NCBI RefSeq assembly: GCF_022201045.2
Contig: NC_068562.1
Location: 6,926,001 to 6,990,000 of the forward strand
DNA length: 64,000 nt
Origin: Citrus sinensis
Taxonomy: Eukaryota > Streptophyta > Magnoliopsida > Sapindales > Rutaceae
Reading direction: 5' to 3'
The notes under the pieces are model-generated. The model saw nothing but the letters and a program-made list of their open reading frames with translations. It made no database searches and had not been told where the DNA came from. Both the position numbers and the translations under genes were made by a program. The stretch's first letter is position 1. Each line of letters begins with the position of its first letter. Below, piece by piece: positions 1 to 55,302 of this stretch.

Positions 1-372
1 AGCTGCGACAACGATCTCGGAACCGACGGCAACGGCGTGTGATAGCGGAACCGACAGCAACGACGTATGATCTCGGAATCGATGGCTAGCGATTAAGCTT
101 CGAAGAGGAGAACACGGGTCACGGCTCACGAGTTCTAGGGATTTTGCTTTTTTTTTTAATCTTAGGTATTTGTATTTTTTATTTAAATGAGGGTAGTTTA
201 GAAATATTTGAATCTGAGTGGGGGTAAAATGGGAAGTCCCGGGAATGAGAGACTGATTCACACCTCCTCCCATGGGAATCAATCTCCCATTCCCCATTCC
301 CAAATAGTTGTGGGCCCCACTAATTTGATTCTGATTCCTGCTTCATTTTTGCGAAGTAAACGCGTTAATCAT

Positions 373-401
373 TCCGATTCCTCAATCTGGGAAGTAAACA
401 C
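373..401. repeat. PIF/Harbinger-like terminal inverted repeat (one end)
   Basis: Read on the minus strand, this stretch begins GTGTTTACTTCCCAGATTGA. That closely matches the left end of the Harbinger-type MITE near 36537 (GTGTTTACTTTCCGAAATTG). The flanking bases 225-300 hold the same kind of alternating GGGAATGG/CCCATTCC sequence seen just inside the 36.5 kb element. I infer one terminus of a Harbinger element whose other end lies off the left edge or is lost. No target-site duplication could be paired. Confidence 0.5.
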
Positions 402-550
402 ACCACAAGGGGAGACGCCACTAAAGATTATATATAATCCAATTTTTTTCTTTATTTGGAGGTAAGAAATGTAATACATGTTACTTTAATGTTTATGTCA
501 TATTAACATTTGATTAATAAATTAATAATTGTTACATATCTTTACAAAAG

Positions 551-1215
551 TGTATTGATGCAATTGATGGAACCCACATTACTGCGTGGTCACGATCACA
601 TAAACAAATATCATATTGAGATAGAAATGCTTAAGTGACTCAAAATATTATATGTGCATGTTCTTTTGACATGTTGTTCACATTTGTATATACGGGTTGG
701 GAAGGTGGTGCCAATGACTCAAGGATATTTTTGGATGCTTTAAGTATAGCAGAATCCGAGTTTCCACATCTAAAAGAAGGTAAGAATATTGCGATATATA
801 TATAAGTTAGTATTTTTAGCTTTTTTAAATAAGTTTTATTTATTGTTTTCATATTTTATGATATTACTATGTTGTGGACTCTGGCCATAAATATGAAAAT
901 GATTTTTGACACCGTATAAAGGTAAGAGGTATCATTTATGTGATTATAAATGATCAAGTCGAGTACATTGTTTAATTATAGACATTCATTATGCGTAATG
1001 TAATGGAGCAACGCTTTAGTGTTTTAAAAGCACGATTTTCAATTTTAAAGGATATGCATAATTATAGTTTACGTAAGAAACATGTAATTCCAATTGTATG
1101 TTGCATTTTATATTAGTAGACCACTTACTAATATTGATTTATCTCCAGCAAATGTTGCAGAGATGAATGCTACAGGAGATATAATTGCAACTTCCATGTG
1201 TCATGATACGTACGT
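551..1215 (+). pseudogene. PIF/Harbinger transposase remnant (DDE_Tnp_4)
   Basis: The frame from 551 reads CIDAIDGTHITAW, then after two in-frame stops (near 620-640) continues to YTGWEGGANDSRIFLDAL and ESEFPHLKEG. These are the first two catalytic-Asp neighbourhoods of PIF/Harbinger nucleases. Around 863 the motif YYVVDSGHKYEND follows, and from 991 the frame MRNVMEQRFSVLKARFSILK carries the third acidic residue. A tail near 1159 reads EMNATGDIIATSMCHD. Two stop codons, frame changes and missing upstream parts make it a dead copy. The Myb-like second ORF of such elements was not seen. The family assignment is strong; the exact ends are approximate. Confidence 0.85.
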
Positions 1216-1850
1216 AATGCATTATTTCTATCATGTAATTTTTTATAATTAGTTTGTTTAAATCATATGTGTTGTAATTTATATCTTAATTGTAATGTAA
1301 AAACAATGACAATGTAAAACTTTTTTGATTAATGCTAATACTAAAACTTTATGCTCATATAATTTTTTATAATTATTTTGTTTAAATTATTTATGGTATG
1401 TTTGTATATGTATTAGTTAAATAATTATTTTTTTAACAATAAATATGAATTAAATGTTTAATAAAAAATATTTTTGAAAATAATACTACAAAATATATAT
1501 TATATATTTTTAGCATTTTCAAATATCTACTGAATGCATATTATTATTAGTTATAAAATATAGGATATAAAAAATGATATCAGACGTATAATTAAATTTA
1601 AAATACAACAACTACAAAATACTATTTTAATTCTTTTTTTTTTCAAAAAATATAAATTCAAAAACAATACAGAACAACCTAAAATTCTCGTCGCTTCTTA
1701 TACTTTATTTAACAAATTTTCACTAGTATTACCATATGATTTTCTAAATTTCTTTTATGCTGTCAAAATCGAATACGCGAAAAAAAAATTGCTCTCCTTA
1801 AACTAATTTCGTTTTTTGTCCTTTCAACACAAATTTCTAAAATCCCCAAA
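1216..1850. other. AT-rich intergenic DNA
   Basis: Very AT-rich spacer between the Harbinger remnant and the promoter of the PMD gene. I see no coding potential or defined repeat ends in it. Confidence 0.6.
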
Positions 1851-2333: not shown

Positions 2334-4208
2334 ATGTTAGAAATGAGTGTTCAAAATCCTCCAACAAATTTTCCTGGACCAATTGACCCGTCAGTGTTGT
2401 ATGAGCAAGAGCAACATATTTCCTCAGCTATATGGGAAGGACAGGACCGTGGTACGCTGAGGTGTCATGAACACACCTCAAAAATTGATGGGTGGAAGCT
2501 AACGAAGAAACAGATTGATTTGGTGGGGAAAGCTGGCTTTGGATATTTTAGATTGATTGGACAAGTCAGCTTGAACAATCCACTCATCTCTGCACTGGTT
2601 GAGAGGTGGAGGAGGGAAACTAATACATTTCATTTGCCAAGCGGTGAAATTACCATTACACTTGATGAAGTAGTCCGAATTCTTGGACTACGGGTTGATG
2701 GAGAAGCTGTAGTAAGAGATAACTCTGTCGTGGGTTCTAACACAGAAATTTGTGAAACTTTGTTAGGGAAAGCACCAAATTCAGATGCTAAGGAGATAAA
2801 GGGTGGAATGGTGAAACTTGGTTGGTTGAAGGAAAACTTTTCCGAGTGTCCTGAAGATGCTTCAAATGAAGAGGTTGAACGACGGACGCGTGCTTTTCTA
2901 ATGTACTTGGTAGGAAGCACAATATTTGCCACAACATCTGGCAACCTTGTCCCTCTGTTGTACCTCCCATTGTTCAAGGACTTTGACAAAGCTGGGAATT
3001 ATGCATGGGGTGCGGCAGCACTGGCGTTCTTGTATAGACAGCTCGGCAAAGCTTCCATGAAATCTCAAGGTACCATCAGTGGCTCTTTGACACTATTACA
3101 GGTAACTTACATTTGATTTTACATTCAGGTTTTTAATTCTCTATTCCTATTTATGGAAGGCCTAAATAGGTAAGGTATTTGACTTGTTTACTGTATTAAT
3201 ATTTTACAGCTTTTTGTTGGAAGGTTGGGATTAATTAGATAAAACACTTTTTTCAGTGCTGGAGTTACTTTCATCTTAACATTGGCCGACCAGAGCTTAA
3301 GCAAGACTTGTCTCATCGCTTTCCACTTGCTCTTCATTGGAAAGGAAGACTAAATACTCAAACTAAATCCGATGTAGTTATGTATCGCCAGAAATTGGAC
3401 TCTTTGGATTCAAGCGACGTAAGTTTTCTAGCTTTGTTGTTTAACTTGGAGGTCAATATTCAAAATTTTATTGCCTTACAGCTGATGCCTTGGATGATAG
3501 AAACAGATAGACTGGACTCCTTACAAAGATTTGGATAGCAGCAGCATTCCAGAGAATTTTAGAGGTGATTTAACTCTGGGTAGGTCTAGGACAATCTTGC
3601 TTTGTATGGATAAAGCTGAATGGCATTTGCCAGACCGTTGTTTGAGGCAGTTCGGTTTGCATCAATCAATTCCAAAAGATGTGCAGCGACGTGAGACTAA
3701 GAATAATGAAGTTGATAATGAGTTGGACATGTCAAAAAGAATGGATTCGGAGTTGCAAGAGTGGTCTAACCGTTGGCAAAACATTGTGGATGTTGTGGAG
3801 GATGGGGATGGCACAGACGAAAGTGAATACACAACATGGTACTCAAACATTACCCGGAAACTTGTTCATAGGCGGGCATTTGCTCCGTCTCAATTTCAAG
3901 AATCAGTGAGGCTTTTCTTTCCTCTCCTTTCGTACATTTTCCTAATCCAGATGCTCAGTGGTCCTATTCATATTGAATGTAATATATCATATGTGTAACT
4001 TTTACAGGTTTCGGAAATGATGAAAATTCAAGAAATAGCATATGCAGCTTCAACAGAAGACTTGAATATGAAAAACAAGTTAGCATTCGAGAAGATTAAA
4101 GCATTGGTGGATCGGTATCTGGCAAATCGTGTTGAGGGTTTCAAGGTGCTGGAGAAAAGGAAGAGAAGTAGTGAGAGTAGTCAGAACGATGAGGAACCTC
4201 TAAATTAA
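2334..4208 (+). CDS. Plant mobile domain (PMD) protein, MAIN/MAIL1 type
   Basis: Exons 2334-3101, 3257-3418, 3507-3905 and 4008-4208 join in phase to give 509 residues. The N-terminal part holds PGPIDPSVLYEQEQHISSAI, LRCHEHTSK, then GFGYFRLIG, LISALVERWRRETNTFHLP and EVVRILGLRVDG, hallmarks of the PMD (PF10536, aminotransferase-like plant mobile domain). Exon 3 opens IDWTPYKDLDSSSIPENF and carries AEWHLPDRCLRQFGL, also typical. The C-terminal tail is basic and serine-rich (KRKRSSESS). The acceptor at 3506 was chosen over 3480 because the latter runs into a stop. Free-standing PMD proteins of this clade (MAIN, MAIL1) are nuclear factors that in Arabidopsis repress transposons and sustain meristems; that role is from family knowledge. 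The next gene encodes a PP7L-type partner. A second in-frame ATG lies three codons downstream. MAIN and MAIL1 cannot be told apart by eye. Confidence 0.9.
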
Positions 4209-5380
4209 ACCTACTGTATTTTTCTAATGATGTTATAGCAATGATGCTTTTAGAAACTATACAGCCGTAATTATCACTAACGACCATGTCGTCTGAACTT
4301 TCAATTGCTGAATAGGGACGTCTTTTTGATATTAAGTATGACAGGTCGTCAAATTATGACAACTTATGAAATCGAAGAGCAGCATACCGTCCTCCGATTT
4401 TATGTTTATATATGATCACATACTCGCGTATGATATTATCGAATGTTTTCTCGTATTTTATCAAAATATTTTATATGTTTGCTTGCCTAGAAATTCGAAG
4501 TCGGCCAGAAAAACTAATATCAAATCTAGAGAACGGATATGGCCGTGGTTGATTTCATTAGTAGTTTATTTATTTATTTTTTTTTCAGGTTTCAAATCTT
4601 GCCTACAAGTTATTAACTATATGTTTCCCAATTGGAAATAAAATTTGAATTCTAAATGATGTGTTATTAATCATTATTAGATTGCATCATTCATTCCTTA
4701 TACAAATCAATTATTGATTTACGTACGAGTTTCATTGCTTAGGTGACAGTGTGATTAGTAATATTTAGTATTCAAATTTTGGATTATTTTTTAAAACTTG
4801 GGTAGTCATTTGTATTTAAACCAAAAGGCGAGGGGACACTTTAAATTTCCTTAAAAAATGAAACGACGGTGTCGTCTATCTGGAAACTAATAAACGACAA
4901 CTAAAGGTCTTGGAAATCCCCAAACCAGATCGTCTCGCTGCCTTCCAATTCGAAACACCACGTAACCTAACTTCCTCGAGCGCGACGGCGGTTTGTCCGT
5001 CACCGGTATGTTTCTTTTTTTCTTTTTCTTTTTCTTATTTTTCTTATTTTTGTGTTCAGATAACATTTAGTCATCATTCCAGTGTTTATTGAATTTATTT
5101 ATTTGTTCAGTCATTTTATTTTATTTTATTTTATTTTTTTGCTTTCTTATAGAAGTAATTTTTATCTATTTTTCTTTTATTAAGCAGTATCACTAGAAAT
5201 AATTACGAAAAATACTTCATTTTCCATTGTTCGTTATTATTGTTGCTGTAATTATTTTCCTTTTAATATAAAGCGATTTTGCTAAACTATATTTTGATTT
5301 CCATTTTAAAAAATTAATATGGTTAAATATCTCAGTGAATTTTTTTTTTCCGCACTTGCAGTTATTTTGATTGGTACAAA
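4209..5380 (+). other. Spacer and 5' untranslated region between PMD and PP7L genes
   Basis: The first 650 bases are AT-rich with no supported gene; a 91-codon ORF at 4366-4641 has no family features. From about 4860 a GC-richer block (ends near CGTCACCG|GTATG at 5008) looks like a leader exon. The intron that follows ends at the acceptor TTGCAG at 5356-5361, 20 bases before the ATG. PP7L therefore appears to have its own promoter and not to depend on read-through from the PMD gene. Confidence 0.55.
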
Positions 5381-8300
5381 ATGGACCTCCTTCCTTTGAT
5401 AGGGGATGTTGATGAATTCAAAGAGATTATGGGAATCATCAATAAAGAAATGGATTTGGTTAGTTTGAGTGATGAGAATCTTCGCCGTGTATTTATGATC
5501 TTTGAAATAGCAGGTGGCGTGGTTAATGGCCGAACTAAACAGGTAGACTGAGAGAAATGACATAATGGGTATATCATTTTATCATTTGCTTATTGCTGTT
5601 TGAACTATATTTATGAATTTACAGGTTACGGAAGCTGATGCCGAACAGTTATGGTGCTCTAGTGTTGATGGAGTGGTGAGTACTTGGTTTTTGTGTTTTC
5701 TGGTTGCTTTAATGCCTTTGCTTTTTTGAATTCAGAGAAGTTGAGAGAAATAATTCGGTAGTTACTTCCAAAATATTGCAAGTTAAATTTGCTTTCTAGG
5801 GATATTGATACTTGTCTCTAACTTAGAAATGAGAAAATCGTCTTATCCAGCAGTACGTTTATCTAAAAATTCTTTTTACCGAATGATATGCAATTTTTTG
5901 CAGGTGGCTGTGGCCAAGCAGGTAATTGATTATGCATGTGAGATGAATTTTCAGGATTTAGATGGACTGTTGAAGCAAGCAGTGGTGGAGATATTAAGAA
6001 GTGCGTGTAATATCGTAAGTAAACAACGTGTGTTTGACTCAAGTCTGCAAGGTTTACTTGAAGAACTTCAAGTGGAAGTTGGTTCAACAATGAGAGAGAG
6101 ATTGGTTGGTGGCAAATTAGAGAACCTGACAAAGGAGCAGGACACTTTACCCCTTTCATGGCCTCGTAACGGACGTATAAGCCTGGAATGGATTCAGCTT
6201 CTTATTTCAACCTTCAAGTGGTCTTCATGGAAAGATCCAAAGGAATTTCAAAATGTAATGCCTGTCACTGTGGTGAAAAAGTTGATTAGTGCAGCTTCAA
6301 AAATCATGAGGGAAGAAAGAAACTGTGTGAAACTTCGTGTTAGAGAGGATTCGGAGGTTATTGTCGTTGGTGACATTCTTGGACAGTTTCATGATCTGGT
6401 TGCACTTTTTGAAGAAAATGCTGGGTTTCCATCTGATCATCGATACTTTGTTTTCAATGGTAACTATGTTGATAAAGGTTCATGGGGTTTGGAAGTGCTT
6501 TTAGTTTTGTTGGCTTGGAAGGTATATTAAAGTTGCTATATTTATTTTGGTTTACTTTATTATTCTAATTATAAGTATATCTCTGACATGAATAGAAAGA
6601 AGATAAAGGAAATTAGACAATATAAGATGACTTGCTGTTAGTTTGTTGCATGTACTTGCTTGTTTATTTGAATTCATAGATTTGCGAGATAATTCTCTTA
6701 TGCTTGGCCTATAGATGTTGTTATTGTTCTTATTAATACTATTTTTTTTGTTTCCTATCAAAAGACCAAAAAAAAAAAAAAAAGATGTGCTAATTATGCT
6801 ATTTTTGTTTTTGAAATTTTAATCACTTATGTGTAGGTCTTGATGCCTCATAGAGTATATTTACTCCGTGGAAATCATGAAACAAAGAATTGCACATTGG
6901 CATATGGTTTCTGGGCAGAGTTATGCACCAAATTTGGCAAAAAAGATTGCAAATTGGTGTTTGATAAATGCTTGGAGTGTTTCAGAACACTTCCCCTGGC
7001 CACAATCATTGCTCAAGGTGTTTACACAACACATGGGGGCCTATTTCGTCGCACATGCAGTGCTAGTACACAATGTTCTACAGGAGAAAAGAGACAAAAG
7101 CTGGATGCTTTATCTTTGGGTTCTTTAAAGGAGTTTGCTAAAGTAAACAGATTTCTTGAAGATGTGCCTGAAAATGATTTATTGAGTGATGTTCTATGGT
7201 CTGACCCATCTTCCAAAGCTGGGCTCAGAGAAAATACTAAAAAGTTTGGTCTACTGTGGGGTCCAGATTGCACTGAGGAGTTCTTAAAAGAGAACCATTT
7301 GAAGGTTAGAATCCTTCAATTGCTTATAATTAATCATTTGAACTTAACTTGTTTTCAATATATCCTATGTCAATCTTATTAATATTCCTTCAAGTAGTAC
7401 TTATAATATCACATCTAGTTCTGGTTCTAGATCTCACAACTACATGTCTCGAATACTCCTTCAAGGCAAACTTTTTGAGTTCTGCCTTTTCTTATGGTTC
7501 CAGGATATTCTGTCCTCTGACATTCTTAGATTTACCTTTCTCTAATTTTAATACCAAAACTATTTTTGTTTTTTCTTCTTTTTGTTGAGAAAATCCCAAG
7601 CATTTATGATGAAACAAAGGTAATAGCTAGAACTTCGGAAGTTATGGCTTTAGATGTTTTTAATGTAGCACTCATTCGTTGAAAATTCTCTCTTAATCCC
7701 ACCCTCTCTACGTTAACCTCTGTCAACAATAAGAATTCCTATTCTAAGATTGGGTTACTTTGTTTGTTGCTGTTACAGTTAATTATAAGATCACATGAGG
7801 GTCCTGATGCACGGACTGGTGCGGATGATGCTAGAAATATGTTAAATGGTTACAGCAAAGATCATGATACAGTCTCTGGGGAACTGTATACTTTATTCAC
7901 TGCTCCAAATTACCCACAGGTTCAGATTCTTCTTGGCTGTACCATGCACTCGCGTAGATTTATCTTCTAGTGTTAATCCATTATCCTCTGTGAATTGTCT
8001 TAACAATCTGCGGAGCTGCAATGGATTTGACCTTTTATCAACCTCTTCACATTTCTATTGGAGTTGATTCATGGGAAAGGATGGTTTGATTTTAAGTCAT
8101 TTGAATCTCCTATCATGGCTATGCGCCTAAATGTAGGGTTGTAATTTGGGGATATGATGACAGAATTTATACTTGCCTGAAAACTTGGGTATGCATCATA
8201 TGGATATCCCATCCCATATAAAAGTATAATAATAATAATAAAAAAAAAAGAGATCAATTGATATCTATACTCTGGGAAAGGATAATTTGGAAAGGTTTGG

Positions 8301-9396
8301 TCCTTATCTTTATTGCTAAAATGCGAAGATGGTTTTTTTGCTTTTATTGCTTTATCTGCTTCCTTTTCCCTTTTCTTTCTTTTTCTTTTTCAATCACAAC
8401 CTGCCATAGTAGTGGTGCCTTTCAGAGTTGTAAGGAGAAGCTGAATCTCATACACTCATGGCATTTGGAAATTATACAGGTTGATGGGTTTGATAATGTA
8501 GGAGCATATGCTGTATTGAAGCCTCCTCTGTTTGATTCTCCTTTGTTTCTCCAACTGAAAGCTGCAGAAAAGCCAGAGGTGTGGAATTTTGATGTCTTTT
8601 ATTTTTTATTTTTTCCACCCTCTGAGGGGATAAACATGGATGACAATGGTATACAACGTAGGACTTAGGGAGAAAACTGACACTAAAATTGTAAGTAATT
8701 GAAAACCTTGGGTGCTTGAGAATGATATGAAGATATCATAAACCAATGCTTCTTGTCGGTGGATTAAATTGCATCTAAAATCAGGATGGTACATGGCTGC
8801 ACGCTTCGTATAGGTATTAGGCTGTAGGTTGGGGAGATGATGCAGAAGACTTGACAAAGGTTTGTCATAAATATTTGTACCAACATATGTATATGATTAA
8901 GCTGATGCTGCTCGTTTCTCAGGTACCTCCTTATGATGTTTTCATTTATGAAGACATGGATTCAGATGAAGGGGAAGATTCTAGGTTGACAGATTCAGAT
9001 GAGGAACAAGACATGGTATCAAGGGATGCTGTTGGAAAAAAAGACTCGACTCTGATGGTGAGTTGGTAACATTGCCCTTAAAAAATAGAACCTCTGGTCT
9101 CTCCATATCCATACCTAAGGCATCCTTGACTTTGTTATTTGACAGCCAATTTCGTGTGTGTGTGTGTGTGTGTGAATTTCTTTATTTCATATCGTTAATA
9201 ATATTGGAATGATTAGGTGACTAAAGTAGAACTCAACAAAAAGATACAAGACCAAGCTGAAAAAATAAAGCAGTTGGAGAGCACGGTTGAGTTGTTCTTG
9301 AAAGACCGTGATGATCGCTCGAGGAGGATGGAAGAGATGTTGAGCACTCTTTTACAGCAATCATCTCGCAAAAAACGTGGGAGAGGTAGCACTTAA
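5381..9396 (+). CDS. PP7L: PP7L-type serine/threonine protein phosphatase 7 homologue, probably inactive
   Basis: Eight exons (5381-5542, 5625-5675, 5904-6521, 6837-7304, 7779-7919, 8480-8578, 8923-9057, 9217-9396) join in phase to give 617 residues. Near residue 170 LPLSWPRNGRISLEWIQLLI marks the PP7 class of the PPP superfamily. PPP motifs follow in order: GDILGQ (about 227-232), GNYVDKG (257-263), RGNHET (288-293), THGGLF (about 342), DVLWSDP, RSHEG (437-441) and TAPNYPQ. The first two should read GDxHG and GDxVDRG, so a metal-ligand His is Leu230, a metal-ligand Asp is Asn258 and a catalytic Arg is Lys262. Arabidopsis PP7L (AT5G10900) is likewise described as an inactive PP7 homologue that binds MAIN and MAIL1. 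The acidic DSDEGED stretch and C-terminal coiled coil (about 560-605), with a basic end, could mediate binding. Intron 7 holds a (TG)n run at about 9155-9173. Confidence 0.9.
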
Positions 9397-12819: not shown

Positions 12820-15800
12820 ATGACTTCTGTGAGAAACAACTTAATGCCTCCAGGTCTTGTGTCTAACCTGGAACAAGTGCTTTTAAACAAGAAGAAGAAG
12901 AGTAAAGACAATGAAGATGATGGTGATGATGGCACCAGTAAGCAATCAAACGAAGAGGCCAATGAATCAACGGAGCCCTCTACTTCTGATTCGACGGAGA
13001 ATGTTGATAGTTCAAAGCCTGTGCTTTTGGTCACAAATGGGGATGGAATTGAGTCTCCTGGCCTTGTTTATCTTGTTGAAGCTTTGGTTCGTGAAGGGCT
13101 CTACAATGTCCACGTTTGCGCTCCTCAATCGTGGGTTTTGTTTCCTTTTTATTGTTTATTGCCACTTTTTTAAACCAAAGTTTTAGTTTTGGCAAATGGG
13201 TTTTGTTAAAGTTTTTATTTTGGTATCTGTGTATTGTTAAAGTTTTGATATTTTAGTGGGTTTGTTCGTTTCTCTGTCTGTGTTCTCTGTGATTTTTGTA
13301 ATTTGTATGTTGTCGTTTGTTTCTCTTGATTTATTATTTGGGCTCTTGATTTATTATTTGGGTTTGTGGGTGTTATTTAAATAATGATTTTTTCCGTCTT
13401 TCTGTGTTTAGTTGGCTATTCTTTGAATTTTCTTATCTGAGGCAATCTTTTGTATTCAGAATTTCTCGTGTATGGCCATTCGAGTTGTCTTTAGCAGTTT
13501 AGCTGATTATTTATGTATTTTTGTTGTTTTTTTCTCGCTATATTTTGATTGACTTTTCTTATCTGGGTATATTGTGTTTCTGAATTGACTTTGATTTGTA
13601 GGTTATTTGAATTTTGGGAGTCTTTTCTGATTTGCTACTTTGTGAATGAACTGCTTTAGGGACAAATCAGTGTCAGGTCATTCTGTGACACTCCGAGAAA
13701 CGATTGCTGTAAGTTCTGCTGAAATTAATGGTGCCACAGCGTATGAAGTTTCAGGTATGGCTTCAAATTTACTATCTGTTTCACTCGAAGCTTTTCTTTT
13801 GACTGCTTGGTATCATTTTATTCATTTGGAATGTGAAATGATCTTAATTATCATGTATGAGGAATAAACTAAGCTGCATCTAGTAGTTAAAGATTCTTGT
13901 ATGTTCTGTAAGAGGGATATGGCTTATGTGTTTTTTTCTAGAAAATGATGAATTATATCTTGCATTATTGACTGTCATCGGTTATAAACGATGTTTGTAT
14001 TGTTATATGCCTCTAATGTGTAAATCTAATATAATTTAGTCATACTTGTTGATAGTAATACGACCTTTACTAATGGCACTTGTCACTCAGGGACTCCTGT
14101 GGATTGTGTGTCATTAGCACTATCTGGGGCACTATTTTCTTGGTCAAAGCCTTTGCTGGTTAGTAATGATTTCCTGTTATTTGTGATTTTAAATTTAGAT
14201 TTCAACTGTAAGCATTTTTCATAGTCCTCTTGGAATATGATTTTCAGGTAATTAGTGGAATCAACCGAGGTTCAAGCTGTGGTCATCACATGTAAGTTGT
14301 TTCCATGTGCACGTGCCTCTGTTTCATCTTGTTAAGCATCAATGGCATTCAATTCAATACTGCCCTTTCGAATCACTGTTTAGCATGCATAAGTTATTCT
14401 TTTCTTGAACAACTGTTACTCGGTGATATCTGCTTAAAGCTGTCCATGACTTTTTATCGCTTCAAAAGTTCTTCTTAATACTTCTGGCACTTAGTTGTAG
14501 TTTGCAGTTATTCTTATATCTTAAAGAAATTCATCAGGTTCTACTCAGGTGTTGTTGCCGGAGCCAGAGAGGCATTAATTTGTGGTGTACCTTCTCTGTC
14601 CATATCCCTAAACTGGTGGGTTGATCTTTATGTTATATGGAAGTAACTATGATTTTGCTTAATCATCGACAAGTAATTATTGTCTTTTATAGGAAGAAAG
14701 ATGAAAGCCAAGAGAGTGATTTCAAGGATGCAGTCAGTGTCTGTTTACCTTTGATAAATGCTGCTACTAGAGATATTGGAAAGGGAATTTTTCCAAGGAG
14801 TTGCTTGCTCAATGTAGAAATCCCGACATCTCCATTAACCAACAAGGTCTTTCCTTCAAAAGTAGTTTGTGAAGAATATTGATTTTGCAATTTATAAGTT
14901 TCATGTGATACATGGTTGAAGACTGATTTTTGGCAATGGTTTCTGGTAGTATCTTTACATGAATGGAAGAGAGGATAGCAGGTGGAAGTATAATGAACAT
15001 TGGTTGCTTAATATTATAGTCAAGCTGTTCACCAAAGCTCATTAATCTTTGGCTCTGGCCTAAAGCACAACATATTAATTCCTTTCATAAACCCCACTTT
15101 TGAGCTGTCTTTTTTCCTTTTAAATTTCTTTAAACTCATCTTTCTGCACATTAAAGCAATATCATTGCTAGCCTTTGAGAGAATAGTTGTTTTTTTCCTT
15201 CTGTGTTTTATTATGCTTATCTGCAAACAGTCAACCTTTTGCTTAAAATGGTTAATGACCCATAAAATTTTCCTCCTTTTATTGGCCCATTGCCAGTTGC
15301 TTTTGCCTTGCAATGTGATATCCTCCATGTGAATAAAGTGACATGCATCAGTACCCAACTTTTATGTCAGCTTACTTGATGTCATAGCTAAGTTATATTC
15401 TGTACTTTATTTGCTTTGTTGTATTCTCTAAATTTTTCTTTGTTATCAGCTTTTAACCTCACTGTAATATGCATATTATTTATCTTTTGCTTGGCAGGGT
15501 TTCAAATTTACCAAACAAAGCATGTGGAGATCCACTCCTAACTGGCAAGCTGTTTCGGCAAACCGGTATCCTGCTGGACATTTTATGTCTAATCAACAAA
15601 GTCTTGGCCTACAGCTTGCACAGCTTGGCCGAGATGCCTCTGCTGCTGTGAGTACATTACATAATTCTATCCTCTCTCCTTGTTTGTGTTTCATCTAAAT
15701 TGCTTTTTTGTCTAGCATCCATTCTTGGGGTTATACCTTCTTTTACTTGTGCTTAGGGTGCAGCTCGTCGTTTGACCACACAAAAGAAGAGTATGGTGGA

Positions 15801-23333: not shown

Positions 23334-24779
23334 CTAAGGACCCCAGCTGGTTGAAGGGAAATTAGGGTTTGTAGTAGTAGCATATGTCCCTCTTGATAAT
23401 GGTGACAATGACGACAATGACGACGATGGCGAAGTTGATAATGGCTGCAGTGTTGACATGATTGCATCAGTGTACTCCATTGGATCTGCTGGTACATGAT
23501 AAAGATATGAACCAGATGAAAATGTAGTACCACATGAGAGTTTAGCAATTGGGTCAACTCCTTCTAAGGAAGCTGATGAAGATGGCAGGTTACAGACAGT
23601 TCCTTCAAGAATCTCACAAAGTTTAGGCATTGTGGGTACCAAAAAAGGGTTTTGATCATATGGCATTGTAACTATGCTTGGATCAGTAGTATTAAGCTTA
23701 TTATCATGATCTCCTATAATATCATCATAGTAATGTGGAAGAGCTACTGGTTCAATATGGCTGAAAATTTGATTCTCTAATGGATTGGGATCAAGGTGTA
23801 CTTGAGGCTGAAGATGATGAGGCAATGACCAATCCAATGAAGATGAAGAAGTTGACGATGATGGAATGATTGTAGGAGGTGGTGGGAAATGAATAGAAGC
23901 AACGTTGTAATTGCTTAGATTCAGTTTGAATTCAGCTTGATCAAAATTGTTGTGGAACATTGGTGGTGGTGGAGAAGGAAGGTGGAATTGATGATCTTGT
24001 TGATGAGAATTTAATATCAAATTAGGGTTTGTGTTCAAAGAAAAGAAACCGACTTCTTCAGGACAAGTAGAGTTGTGGAAATCAGCTGGGAAGCTGGCTA
24101 AAGCTGGAACAATTTCATGGGACATGAGCTTCTTCTTTATGCTTGAATTCCAAAAATTCTTCACTTCATTATCTGTTCTCCCTGGCAAGTGCCTCGCTAT
24201 CTGTGCCCATCTGTCCAAAAGATAAAATAAAAAGTCTTCATTTGCATGAATATGTATAATTGTAACACAAATTTGGAGACGTAACTTATGTTAGTGATGC
24301 TCTCGCTCGAACATGCTAATTACCTGTTGCCTAGAATGCTATGGAGCTCGATGATGAGGGCAGCTTCCTGAGGAGAAAAGCTCCCACGTTTTAAGTCAGG
24401 TCTGAGATAATTTATCCATCTCAGTCTGCAACTCTTTCCACATCTTTGCAGGCCTGCACCATCAAACAAGAGGAAAAAAAAAGGTATATTTTTCTTACAA
24501 TTATACAGTCCTTTTAAGAAATATTTCAGTACTGCTATTATATGTAGTAACATAAAAATAATTTGCCGTAGAACCGGTCAGCAACTCTTACCAATCTGAC
24601 TGAACAAATAAAACCTTTAAAAAATAATAAGTGTAACAAATAAAACCTGCATGTTTTGGAACAGAACTCCAGCAGCCATGGCCATAAGTTGTAACGTAGT
24701 TTATGAGTTTCTCATCTTCCTCCGGTGACCATAATCCTCTCTTCACTTTCTGCTTGTTGCAACAAGAGTGATGCCCCAT
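23334..24779 (-). CDS. MYB26: R2R3-MYB transcription factor, MYB26-like
   Basis: Exons on the minus strand are 24779-24647, 24453-24324 and 24210-23334, giving 379 residues. [20 protein letters not shown] opens the protein; R2 (about 14-62) and R3 (about 67-113) show the regular Trp positions, ending in [17 protein letters not shown]. The two intron positions are those common to R2R3-MYB genes. The N-terminus and repeats match Arabidopsis MYB26 (MALE STERILE 35) and its relative MYB67. MYB26 drives secondary wall thickening in the anther endothecium and is needed for pollen release. The C-terminal 260 residues are rich in Ser, Pro and Asn, with acidic patches, and are likely activating. The assignment between MYB26 and MYB67 is by recognition of the start and overall length only. 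Confidence 0.88.
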
Positions 24780-33536: not shown

Positions 33537-36036
33537 TCATGTCGGCCCCAATGGTATTGGTGGGTATAGATCTTTGCACAAATTGAATGATGGTTCAGAA
33601 TCAGCCAAGCTTCTGTCGTCTCCATTAGAAAGTTCCATCCACTTCTTAGGAGAACAAAACCTCGATGCTTTTTGCTTAGCTTTGATAGACCGAGTGAGAT
33701 TCATGTAGCTGGGTTTTCGGTAGTAACTCTCTTCTGCTCTTTCCATCGTGAGTGTATTGCCGGAAATTGGAGTTACAGATGTGGATGAAGATGAAGTGGA
33801 TGGTGAGGTCCCGTCATAAAGAGATTCAGAACTCGGGGAGGATGATGAGCGAGTAATCTGAGTAGTTATAGGAGGTTTAGCAATAATTTTAGTATTGACA
33901 TTATTCCTTCTTCCTTTCACCGAGTCTTGCTCGGAAGAACAGGAATAAAACCCAACAATGTTGTCTTCACTTTTCCGATAGAAAGGAGTCATCTCTGACG
34001 GGTCTGAATGCATCTCTTCGAACAACCTGCTATCCCACGGTTTAACTGCCATCCAACTGTCTAGCCAGCTCCAGCCGTGGCCCTTCTTATCCAGCCTATG
34101 ATGTTTGATGGACTTTACAGGCTTGTTTGTTCTTGAATTTGGACTAGGACATGATCTTGATTGCTGAAAGCAAAGAAAATTAGACATACTGTGAATTTAT
34201 ACAATTAAGGCTATATATCTTAATTAAGCGCTTATGAATTTCTCTTTACCACACAGCATTAATTAGAAAATGCGTTCTGCTAAATAGCTGACCAAGATGA
34301 AGGATAAGAAAGAACCTTTTGGGAGAGGTAGTATGCAATTGCTCTCTCCCTCTTGATTGCTCCTTCTTGCCTCAGCTGTAGCTTTGTTCTAACTTCTTCC
34401 GCAGTTCCAGGAATATCACACCATCCTTTCTGCAATCAATAACACCCAACACATAACAAACAACATTACCTTTGCATTTCACATATGTAACAATACTACC
34501 ACCCAGAATCATATAAATCTGAGAACATCTAACCTCAGCCTGTGTGGTGGGGTCAACCTGGCTGCAATGTTCGTCCAACAGGCTATGCATCATAGCCTGC
34601 TTTTCAGAAGCCATCCCCACAGACCTTGCCCTTACTTGAGCCTGAACTCGGACAAGAGCTTGCATGCACCTCAGTGTCACAGCAGCTTGCTTCCGGACGT
34701 GTCGGCCTCGAAATATTGCTTGGAGCCTGACCACAGCTTTCAAGGCCCTGAAGGCCCGTCTTGCCTGCAATCATTTCGAAATTCACACACAAAAGATGAA
34801 AACTATAAAGCACACATGACTCTTCTCCAAATAAGTATCGTAAGATTCTATGACATAGCTCACTGTTGTGTAATAGACTGATAAACTTCGACACCCCATT
34901 GATTAAGCCACAATGGCTGTTTTCCAGACCGATCTTTCAAATGGTTTAGTTCACTTGAAGATAGTGACTCTTCTGTTTTTTCAGCTTTTAGAAAGAGGAA
35001 AAGAGGACAGCACACTAGGAAACGAACATTGTTTCTGGATTTTACATTCAACAAACTTGCATATTCAGAAAAACCTGAATAAAACATCTGGTTATTTTCT
35101 TTGACCTCTCACGCTTCTCGTTAAGATGAAGCAACATGATGAACCTCATCTATAAGTAAGATATTATACAACCATATCAGCACAAAATGTCCTTACAAAT
35201 CCAAATCCAACTTTTTTCCACACAACTATGAAATGGGTCAACAGACTCAAACAAATTAATGGAGGCCATACGGATACATACAGGACCAAAATCATGAGCT
35301 ATTTTCCTTCTCATTTGTCAAAAATTGATCTTCACCAACTATGTAGAATTAGAAATCTCACCAGCTTATTACTCCAAAGCTAAGCTTGCCTAGACGATTG
35401 TTTATATAACAAAATTCCAAAAATTGTAGTTGTATAAAATTTTCTTTTCAATGCATATACCTATAACTGAAACTATTTCTACACATCTAAAGGTCACGGT
35501 CCTGAACCAGAACAGATGGTAGAAAATTAAATTAAATAAAAATTTGACACAGTTGCACACATAATTAAATATTAGTTCTGGAAATCTGATGAAACAGAAA
35601 GAGAAGAAGAACCCAATTACCAACAATCCTCGAAAGGCCGTTTGGATCCGAATTGCTGCCCATTCTTGCCTGATCAACCTGAAATCTTTGGGTAGAGCAC
35701 GGACCACAGTAGCCATAGCTGCACCGAAAGCATCATCGGAATCGGACGACTCTGATGCCGCCAAGTGACTTCTCTTTGATGAAGATCCATACCCTTCCGA
35801 TGAACTCCTCCATAGCCTCCACTTCTTCTTGGTCTTGTCATTCACTTTTTCCTGCAAAATAAACATACACCCAAAAATAAAATAACGAAAAACATGGGAA
35901 ACAATTAAAAAAAAAAGTAAACAAAAAACAGAATTTTTTTATTCTTAATTTTTTTGTTGTTACTTACGTTGTCTGCGATCTGGGGCTTTTTACTTAGAGT
36001 CACAAGTGATTTCAGCCATTTTCCTGAGACGCCCAT
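33537..36036 (-). CDS. IQD family calmodulin-binding protein (IQD7/IQD8-like)
   Basis: Minus-strand exons 36036-35968, 35851-35621, 34764-34534, 34429-34316 and 34163-33537 give 423 residues. It starts [17 protein letters not shown], the usual IQD opening. The IQ67 region at about 88-154 reads [20 protein letters not shown], then [20 protein letters not shown] and [17 protein letters not shown]; the intron within it, after the Leu-Leu of the first IQ motif, is the hallmark intron of the family. [13 protein letters not shown] and [15 protein letters not shown] are further IQD motifs, and the C-terminus carries a Ser-rich tract and ARFC-like [12 protein letters not shown] proteins bind calmodulin through IQ, 1-5-10 and 1-8-14 motifs and act as scaffolds at microtubules, membrane or nucleus. 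The subclade is by resemblance only. Confidence 0.9.
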
Positions 36037-39260: not shown

Positions 39261-40966
39261 CTCTAGGATCCCATCAAGGACAACCAATCTCCCGGATGCA
39301 ATGGTGGCGCCGCCGGCAAGAAAACTAGAGTGCTGAAAAAGGCCTTTCTTCTTCTCCCCAACATACAATTTTCTTGAAGTACTGAGGACAAATATCCATT
39401 TAGAACCCTCCACTGTACTTACACAAACCCTACTTTGTCTGTAAAGAAGCTTTCCATTTTCTATTACCACTTCATATGTTTCCCTCTCTTTCTGCAAGAT
39501 CAATTGTAAATAACAAATATATATCACTACTTTTTTTTATTATATATATTATATATAGGTCATATACATGTAATGTAACAACTCTTAAATGAGGACTTAG
39601 TAACTCTAGTAATAAACGCCGAACACTATATATGGAAATGTGAAGTAATATTTGTAGTACGCGGTTATCCATTTATGTTAGAGTATATATGTGCTTACTG
39701 GTCCAAGGTATTTGATGCATTGATGTTGTAGATCATTTCTCGGGCACTTCGCAACATTTACTTCTTTGCCATCTCCAATGTCCAACCTTCAGTAATTTTC
39801 ACAAATCAAAGAAGGTAATTAAAAATATGTAGTATTAAATTAAAGAAGGAAATGATCAATTCCTTAATTATATATCAAGGGTATTCTTTAACTAGCTTAC
39901 CAGTAGAAGAAAGGTTGGGTGCTCTCACTGGCAAACCAGACTTCATAATACAGATGAAGATTGTGACCATAACGATGGCGGGGATCAATCTAAGCAACAG
40001 AAGAAGGAAAAAGTAACAATTTTGTAGCAAGTTGTTCTTTATCGAAAATATTCAACTAATATTGAGATGAAAGATGTTTTCTCTTAAATAACTGTGAACT
40101 GACCGCTTCAAGCCAGTGTCTTAGAGCCAATTTCTGAGCCTTTTCATCCTTGCACAGACCCTTTCCAAGCTGCGTACAGTTAACAATATTAACCAAGTCA
40201 GCCATTGACAAAACAGAAATTTAATAATGCTAGATAGAATGGGAACATATTGTGGATCACTAATATTCAAAGGTTGCGCTGTTGAATCTTCTCAAGTAAA
40301 TTAAGATATTAGTTAATTTCCAAACAGTAAATTTGCCCTAATATATATAATTAATTAAATGTACCAAAATGCAAAGGAGATACATGATCTTTTGGGTTTA
40401 TCAAATCCTTATAAACGAACTGATGAAATTAACATAATTGATTAACCTTGGCAGCCCTTATCCTAGCCCGTTCCCATCGAGAAACTGCAGATTCTGCCTT
40501 ATCAGAGTTGAAGAATGACACTGAGCTTCGCGTTAAAGCTGCCCTATCTAATTCTTTCCACCTGCATGCAAAAACCTAAAATTAAATAATAAATTATAAT
40601 AATACTAACAATAACTGACCGTTTCCATATATAGAGAGAGAGATTAATTAATTAATTAATTAATTAAAACAATTGATAATACCATAACTCCTCCACAACG
40701 ACAGCGCAATCTGCTAGGTTTCTTCGCGTCCGATAGCTCTTATAAAATTTTTGCAGCTTGGTTGCAGCTCTGTGATGATCAACCAGCTCATCGTCACTTC
40801 CGAATTCCCTCAGCTTCTTACAATTATTATCAGATTCATGATGATCGCCATCAATGCCATTATCCAACTGACCCCTCTTCTTGAAGCTCTTATTAATTCC
40901 CATCATCGGCTTCGTCTCCTGATGATCGTTCTTCAATTCGAAGGTCGGTGATTTCGCAGTAATCAT
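38200..40966 (-). CDS. IQM family calmodulin-binding protein
   Basis: Minus-strand exons 40966-40683, 40561-40447, 40169-40104, 39989-39901, 39786-39699, 39491-39261, 39163-39062 and 38682-38200 give 485 residues. A single IQ motif sits at about 67-87 ([20 protein letters not shown]). Then come [114 protein letters not shown] and [15 protein letters not shown], the conserved IQM core. The C-terminus has [18 protein letters not shown] proteins bind calmodulin, and Arabidopsis IQM1 works in stomatal and stress signalling. An upstream TTG in frame at 40972 is ignored in favour of the ATG. Intron 6 starts in a TA/CA repeat. Confidence 0.93.
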
Positions 40967-41045
40967 ATGCAATAGTTACTATTATTTGCTGAATATTACT
41001 TTAAATCTTGCTGTGAACGTAACGAAATCTGCTAGCCAGGCCCTT

Positions 41046-54833: not shown

Positions 54834-54871
54834 CAAATTTACTCTTTATCTTCCACCCTTTTTCCGTTCAG

Positions 54872-55302
54872 TGGATGATGTGTACCTCTTGATAGGATCT
54901 GCAAATATAAACCAAAGATCAACGGATGGGCAAAGAGACACTGAAATTGCAAAAGGGTGTTACCAGCTGCCCAAAAATGATGATCAAAACAGCGAAGATA
55001 TTAGTGCATACCGTTTGTCGCTATGGTACGAACATACTGGACTTGCAGAGGGACTATTTCGAGAACCTGAAAGCCTGGAATGTGTGCAGAAAATATGTTC
55101 AATAGGAGATGAAATGTGGAATATTTACAGTGGTGAAGAAGTTGTAGACACGGACGGTGTTCACCTGGTAACTTATCCTGTGAATGTAACACCTGATGGA
55201 TTGATTGAGGATCTTGTTGATGAAGGTGGAAATTTTCCTGATACAAAAACTCCAGTGAAGGGAAAGAGATCAAAAGTATTGCCTCCCATATGCACCATTT
55301 AG
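54872..55302 (+). pseudogene. C-terminal fragment of an alpha-type phospholipase D
   Basis: After the acceptor TTCCGTTCAG the frame reads VDDVYLLIGSANINQRSTDG, then AYRLSLWYEHTGLAEGLF, EPESLECVQKI and FPDTKTPVKGKRSKVLPPI before a stop. This is the segment just after the second HKD motif through to the C-terminus of plant phospholipase D, closest in style to the alpha class. The frame is intact for 143 codons but the C2 domain, first HKD and the HxK of the second HKD are absent from the window. It cannot encode an enzyme and is best seen as a final exon left behind by rearrangement. Selection may have relaxed recently. Confidence 0.85.

Follow-up and report, generated by a model that had tools for sequence, protein, structure and literature searches.

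The best-described relatives of the locus considered here are found in Arabidopsis, where the proteins MAIN, MAIL1 and PP7L co-immunoprecipitate and where the respective mutants share phenotypes, a partnership that had also been claimed in a first-pass annotation of this DNA and that is documented in PMC7156037. Fusions between PMD-C and PP7 domains are reported as well, in MAIL3 of the Brassicaceae and in VvMAIL2.2 of grapevine (PMC7156037). PMD and PP7-type proteins are, then, already known both as separate partners and as fusions. In the window analysed here, a stretch of 64,000 nucleotides corresponding to C7:6,926,001-6,990,000 of the Citrus sinensis assembly, a PMD gene and a PP7L gene are found as unfused neighbours, which is a third arrangement beside the separate and the fused forms and represents the missing middle between them.

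The same two families are involved as in the Arabidopsis MAIN/MAIL1/PP7L system, namely a standalone PMD-C protein and a standalone inactive PP7-like protein. The Citrus genes are neighbours, whereas those of Arabidopsis, which we take to be At1g17930, At2g25010 and At5g10900, are placed apart by their locus names. MAIL3 resembles the window locus in that a PMD-C and a PP7-type PPP domain are brought together in the genome, but it is a single fused protein whose PPP domain belongs to the PP7 clade (PMC7156037), while the window holds two genes and the PPP is PP7L. In VvMAIL2.2, similarly, a MAIL2-like PMD paralogue is physically connected to a PPP, although the published account is of a fusion to a PP7 domain and the window genes are unfused and include PP7L.

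Both genes lie on the + strand in a head-to-tail orientation, with the PMD gene upstream and a distance of 1172 bp between its stop codon and the ATG of PP7L. The first-pass annotation had held that a PMD gene adjoins a PP7L gene in the same direction, with both frames intact, and this is borne out by splice models and by Pfam searches on the spliced proteins; the limits it gave, 2334 and 9396, are the exact PMD ATG and the exact PP7L stop. Its family calls, PMD for the one and PP7L pseudo-phosphatase for the other, hold on the evidence of PF10536, PF00149, the PPP tree and the lost catalytic residues. The coding introns of the two models are uniform, all ten being GT-AG (10/10) and all ten in phase 0 (10/10).

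The PMD coding sequence comprises four exons at 2334-3101, 3257-3418, 3507-3905 and 4008-4208, which together specify 509 codons and a stop. The first of these, an open frame starting with the ATG at 2334, carries PF10536, and the last contains the stop; a non-coding exon further upstream is likely, with a donor at about 1936 and an acceptor at 2319/2320, as judged by eye from the sequence. The spliced protein matches PF10536 with an E-value of 1.1e-104 and 350.8 bits (cut-off 34.9), covering positions 1-346 of the 347 in the profile. In the genome searched (299.7 Mb in 11 contigs, nine of them chromosome-sized at 24.8 to 52.3 Mb), the intact gene that comes closest to the window PMD, of the loci compared, lies at C2:20.58 Mb and shows 55% identity over 496 aligned codons. 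We take this gene to be of the MAIL2 type on the basis of its length, its tail and a general resemblance rather than a tree. The label is in line with the report of MAIL2 in all eudicots tested (PMC7156037).

The MAIL2-type gene encodes 745 aa, has a long tail and one intron more than the window PMD, and has no PPP match nearby among the matches listed. Three of its four coding introns fall at the same places in the window PMD, those at coding exons 2 and 3 included, so that the window gene is a DNA-level duplicate and a retrocopy origin is ruled out. What the window gene lacks is the first MAIL2 intron and, by alignment of its fourth exon, the C-terminal tail (509 aa against 745 aa). Differences between the two amount to 0.24 at second codon positions, where they are fewest, and to 0.53 at third positions, where they are most numerous, with nonsynonymous divergence (dN) at 0.37 and synonymous divergence (dS) at about 1.87. 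Because the differences are least at second and most at third positions, the pair has been under constraint; judged from its sequences, it is an old duplication.

With respect to its family, the window PMD is an intron-containing genic copy that is closer to the MAIL2-type gene than to the other PMD types of the genome, which places it in PMD-C; its identity to the seven members compared from an array on C9 is only 23-26%. That array, at C9:26.67-26.86 Mb (L001-L007), has as its six best copies intronless frames of 532-794 aa that are, in pairs, 96.6-99.6% identical. The initial description of the gene as MAIN/MAIL1-type was right about the PMD-C family, but MAIN and MAIL1 are Brassicaceae-specific paralogues of MAIL2 (PMC7156037), and a partner outside the Brassicaceae is therefore better called MAIL2-like. 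The PMD protein has no match among solved structures at E up to 1, and a search of viral contigs with it confirmed none of four candidate stretches (0/4). Upstream, the flank of the gene at window 48-1690 (C7:6926048-6927690) consists of dispersed repeats with at least 60 other matches (40 of 497 candidates scored), most of them to parts of 402-1113 and 1110-1690 (78-84% identity), with 48-403 matched once at 91%.

The PP7L gene has eight coding exons within 5381-9396, specifying 617 codons and a stop. By the splice model these lie at 5381-5542 (with the ATG at 5381), 5625-5675, 5904-6521, 6837-7304, 7779-7919, 8480-8578, 8923-9057 and 9217-9396 (with the stop). The protein has a long N-terminal region of its own and matches PF00149 (Metallophos) with an E-value of 2.8e-25, the PPP domain starting in exon 3; an acidic stretch is encoded by exon 7, and a charged segment that looks helix-like by eye, followed by a basic end, by exon 8.

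The PPP signature motifs are only partly preserved. Exon 3 specifies GDILGQ for GDxHGQ and GNYVDKG for GDYVDRG, and exon 4 has K for R in the (D)RG motif, so that the substitutions are H to L in GDxHG, D to N and R to K in GDYVDRG, and R to K in DRG (TKK). GNHE and HGG (as HGGL) in exon 4, together with RSHE and APNY in exon 5, are retained. In PPP enzymes the four altered positions are two metal ligands, H and D, and two active-site arginines. All four of the residues lost in PP7L are present in each of the other PPPs compared (6/6), and the PP7 gene at C7:0.15 Mb retains GDVHGQ, GDYVDRG, GNHE and the RG motif. Because these four catalytic residues are lost, we infer that the window PP7L would be a pseudo-phosphatase, catalytically dead. 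This parallels Arabidopsis PP7L, which one paper describes as inactive, tracing the name inactive PP7 to its missing catalytic residues (PMC11180769), and another as presumably inactive (PMC9899485).

Within the genome the nearest relative of the window PP7L is this same PP7 gene, the two grouping with a FastTree support of 0.997 in a tree of seven sequences that covered roughly half of the PPP loci suggested by the genome listing; the PP7 model in this tree is incomplete, with 424 codons and no stop reached, and the PP5 entry includes some intron translation between its pieces. The remaining four sequences of the tree belong to genes that we take to be PP1-like. A PPP search of the genome returned at least 26 match rows, seven of them from the window PP7L and three from PP7, the remainder being weaker, with E-values no better than 8.8e-27; at this sensitivity no second PP7L gene was found among the 26 matches listed. 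Solved structures include 92 distinct sequences that match PP7L at E up to 0.001, and the 60 listed of these 92 are PPPs, while a search of bacterial and archaeal genomes with PP7L confirmed none of 34 candidate stretches (0/34).

The gap between the two genes (4209-5380, + strand, 29.7% GC) has a single match in the genome, itself. It contains an AATAAA at 4637 and a TATA-like TATTTAA at 4813. A splice donor at 5006, which agrees with the consensus at 7 of 9 positions, delimits, together with an acceptor chosen by eye at about 5361, a likely intron in the 5' untranslated region (5'UTR) of PP7L. The donor and the TATA-like signal thus make it likely that the PP7L gene begins with a short exon that is non-coding, followed by an intron in its 5'UTR. 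No stop-to-stop frame within the gap exceeds 93 aa (4360-4641), and an in-frame TGA at 5336 precedes the PP7L ATG. As the gap is single-copy and carries poly(A)-like, TATA-like and 5'UTR-intron signals, PMD and PP7L are likely to be two transcription units. A single merged gene is ruled out, for both frames close and both start separately.

A published promoter motif, CATGCAGTTT (PMC9899485), gives no signal in the window, where it has 8 matches with up to one mismatch, none exact, against 6.26 expected by chance. One inexact match falls in the 5' part of the PMD gene, at 2273-2282.

The window also contains other genes, among them SurE-like, phospholipase D-like and IQD-like members. Downstream of the pair, on the + strand, a SurE-like nucleotidase has two exons at 12820-13756, and its sole other match in the genome is a weak one at C1:21.32 Mb, with 52% identity over 44 residues. 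On the - strand are found exons of a Myb-type transcription factor at 23337-24577 (PF00249 on a 318-aa frame) and genes of the IQ calmodulin-binding type at 33540-35938 (IQD-like) and 40667-40975 (IQ motif, PF00612). Finally, a phospholipase D-like exon at 54868-55299 (C7:6980868-6981299) recurs at 98% identity some 313 kb upstream, at C7:6667821, owing either to a recent duplication in the vicinity or to a duplicated segment in the assembly.

How exceptional, then, is the proximity of the two genes? A PMD family search of the genome gave at least 34 match rows, or about 22 loci when grouped by eye, and both this listing and that for PPP are lower bounds. Among the matches listed, PMD and PPP rows come within 10 kb of one another at two places only, the window pair and a PMD relic beside PP5, and no PMD row lies near PP7 at C7:0.15 Mb. 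If two intact PMD-C genes and two PP7-type genes were distributed at random over a genome assumed to hold 25,000-30,000 genes, the chance of an immediate-neighbour pair would be about 0.0003, or 0.0004-0.0005 if the PMD-C relic is counted as a third gene, figures that were computed after the fact, the hypothesis having been chosen once the pair was seen. In the open-licence PubMed Central literature, a PMD-PP7L gene adjacency was not found in titles and abstract openings among the matches listed; wording for adjacency (adjacent, tandem, synteny and the British 'neighbour') is absent from the main text of PMC7156037, and no such adjacency was found in the passages available from PMC5418596, PMC11152179, PMC12797933 and PMC8616336.

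The best explanation, and one that we regard as reasonably probable, is that the locus consists of two complete and separately transcribed genes in head-to-tail order, a MAIL2-like PMD-C gene and the only PP7L gene found, whose products probably meet in a nuclear complex. Several observations weigh against it. The signals in the gap are consensus matches in an AT-rich stretch and constitute weak evidence, and the last PMD exon contains an in-phase donor, AAG|GTGCTG at 4146, that fits 6 of 9 consensus positions; no role for MAIL2 in gene silencing was seen in Arabidopsis (PMC5418596), which weakens any part of MAIL2 in the complex; and at C2:22.800-22.812 Mb an unrelated PP5 gene is followed, some 2.3 kb further downstream, by a PMD-C relic. 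At this last place the PP5 gene (L037, 5212-7856) has intact motifs, and the MAIL2-like relic (L038, from about 200; C2:22.805 Mb) is split by an element on the opposite strand that is presumably Copia-like. In its best stretch the relic is 65% identical to the MAIL2-type gene (143 residues) as against 52% to the window gene (148 residues). The place is ruled out as a second PMD-PP7-type pair, its PPP being PP5, as judged from its frames against a PP5 alignment, and its PMD a relic, and it follows that PMD-PPP neighbours can arise without the MAIN/PP7L partnership. The donor at 4146 bears on whether read-through and splicing could already yield a chimeric PMD-PP7L protein, in effect a module in cis. 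Consensus matches at the ten modelled true donors range from 5 to 8 of 9 positions, and four of these donors do no better than 6, so the donor at 4146 is as good as these four, and it could be joined to the phase-0 acceptor at 5625 with loss of the first 54 PP7L residues. Such a product is nevertheless very unlikely given the PMD stop, the AATAAA, the TATA-like box and the 5'UTR-type intron that intervene, together with a standalone full-length PP7L start that has an in-frame stop ahead of it.

The origin of the adjacency is a related question, and the adjacency is probably a retained or a chance linkage rather than an intermediate of fusion. It may be a lineage-specific accident, in which a MAIL2-like duplicate landed by PP7L and nothing depends on the adjacency, an account that is quite possible though somewhat short of an even prospect. 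The relic by the unrelated PP5 and the dispersed repeats that make up the upstream flank are in keeping with it, as is the failure of SurE-like, phospholipase D-like and IQD-like probes to find a copy near the MAIL2 locus at C2:20.58 Mb (0/3), which also leaves no sign that the PMD arrived in a large collinear block from that region; random adjacency is, however, improbable by the figures given above, with their assumed gene numbers and their after-the-fact character. An ancestral linkage kept in several eudicots, with VvMAIL2.2 being the same pair either fused or merged by gene prediction, is rather unlikely. It draws on the report that VvMAIL2.2 involves a MAIL2 paralogue (PMC7156037), the same kind of PMD as here, and on the fact that the window PMD immediately precedes a PPP gene of like orientation, as a fusion would require, but the wording of the passages from PMC7156037 assigns the PPP part of VvMAIL2.2 to PP7 and not clearly to PP7L. 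In its most extended form, which is decidedly doubtful, PP7L and a MAIL2-like PMD would have been neighbours in an early eudicot ancestor, remaining unfused in citrus-like plants, becoming fused (or merged in a gene model) as VvMAIL2.2, and being separated in the Brassicaceae, which would then have re-evolved the combination as MAIL3. The first-pass annotation had also entertained the pair as if pre-fusion, in the sense of MAIL3, or post-fission, and neither is supported. Because MAIL3 uses a PP7-clade domain and the window gene is the pseudo-phosphatase PP7L, the pair is not the progenitor of MAIL3; nor is it a MAIL3 orthologue with PMD and a PP7-clade PPP in one frame, since the PMD stops at 4208, a separate ATG follows at 5381 and the PPP is of the PP7L type. 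That the pair arose by fission of an earlier PMD-PP7 fusion of the MAIL3 kind is extremely improbable. The PMD-then-PPP order agrees with that which we take MAIL3 to have, but the PPP here is PP7L with its own N-terminal region, it is the MAIL2-type gene, of the loci compared, that the PMD most resembles, and neither gene lacks a start, a stop or a complete domain of its own.

Under the reading as two complete, separately transcribed genes, PP7L, as a catalytically dead PPP, would most likely act as a scaffold. By analogy with Arabidopsis, the PMD and PP7L products would probably meet as proteins, perhaps joined by the MAIL2-type PMD from C2, within a nuclear complex resembling that of MAIN, MAIL1 and PP7L, which would sustain the expression of certain genes and aid the silencing of transposons. 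That the pair acts as one module, as the first-pass annotation proposed, is by the same analogy plausible.

The locus offers a concrete place in which to test how PMD-PPP fusions begin, and whether the grapevine fusion is real. Were the linkage ancestral, it would be the place in the genome from which PMD-PPP fusions arose repeatedly. If the adjacency proves to be conserved, it would represent a pair of linked plant genes for the silencing of transposons; if it is confined to one lineage, it would be a curiosity.

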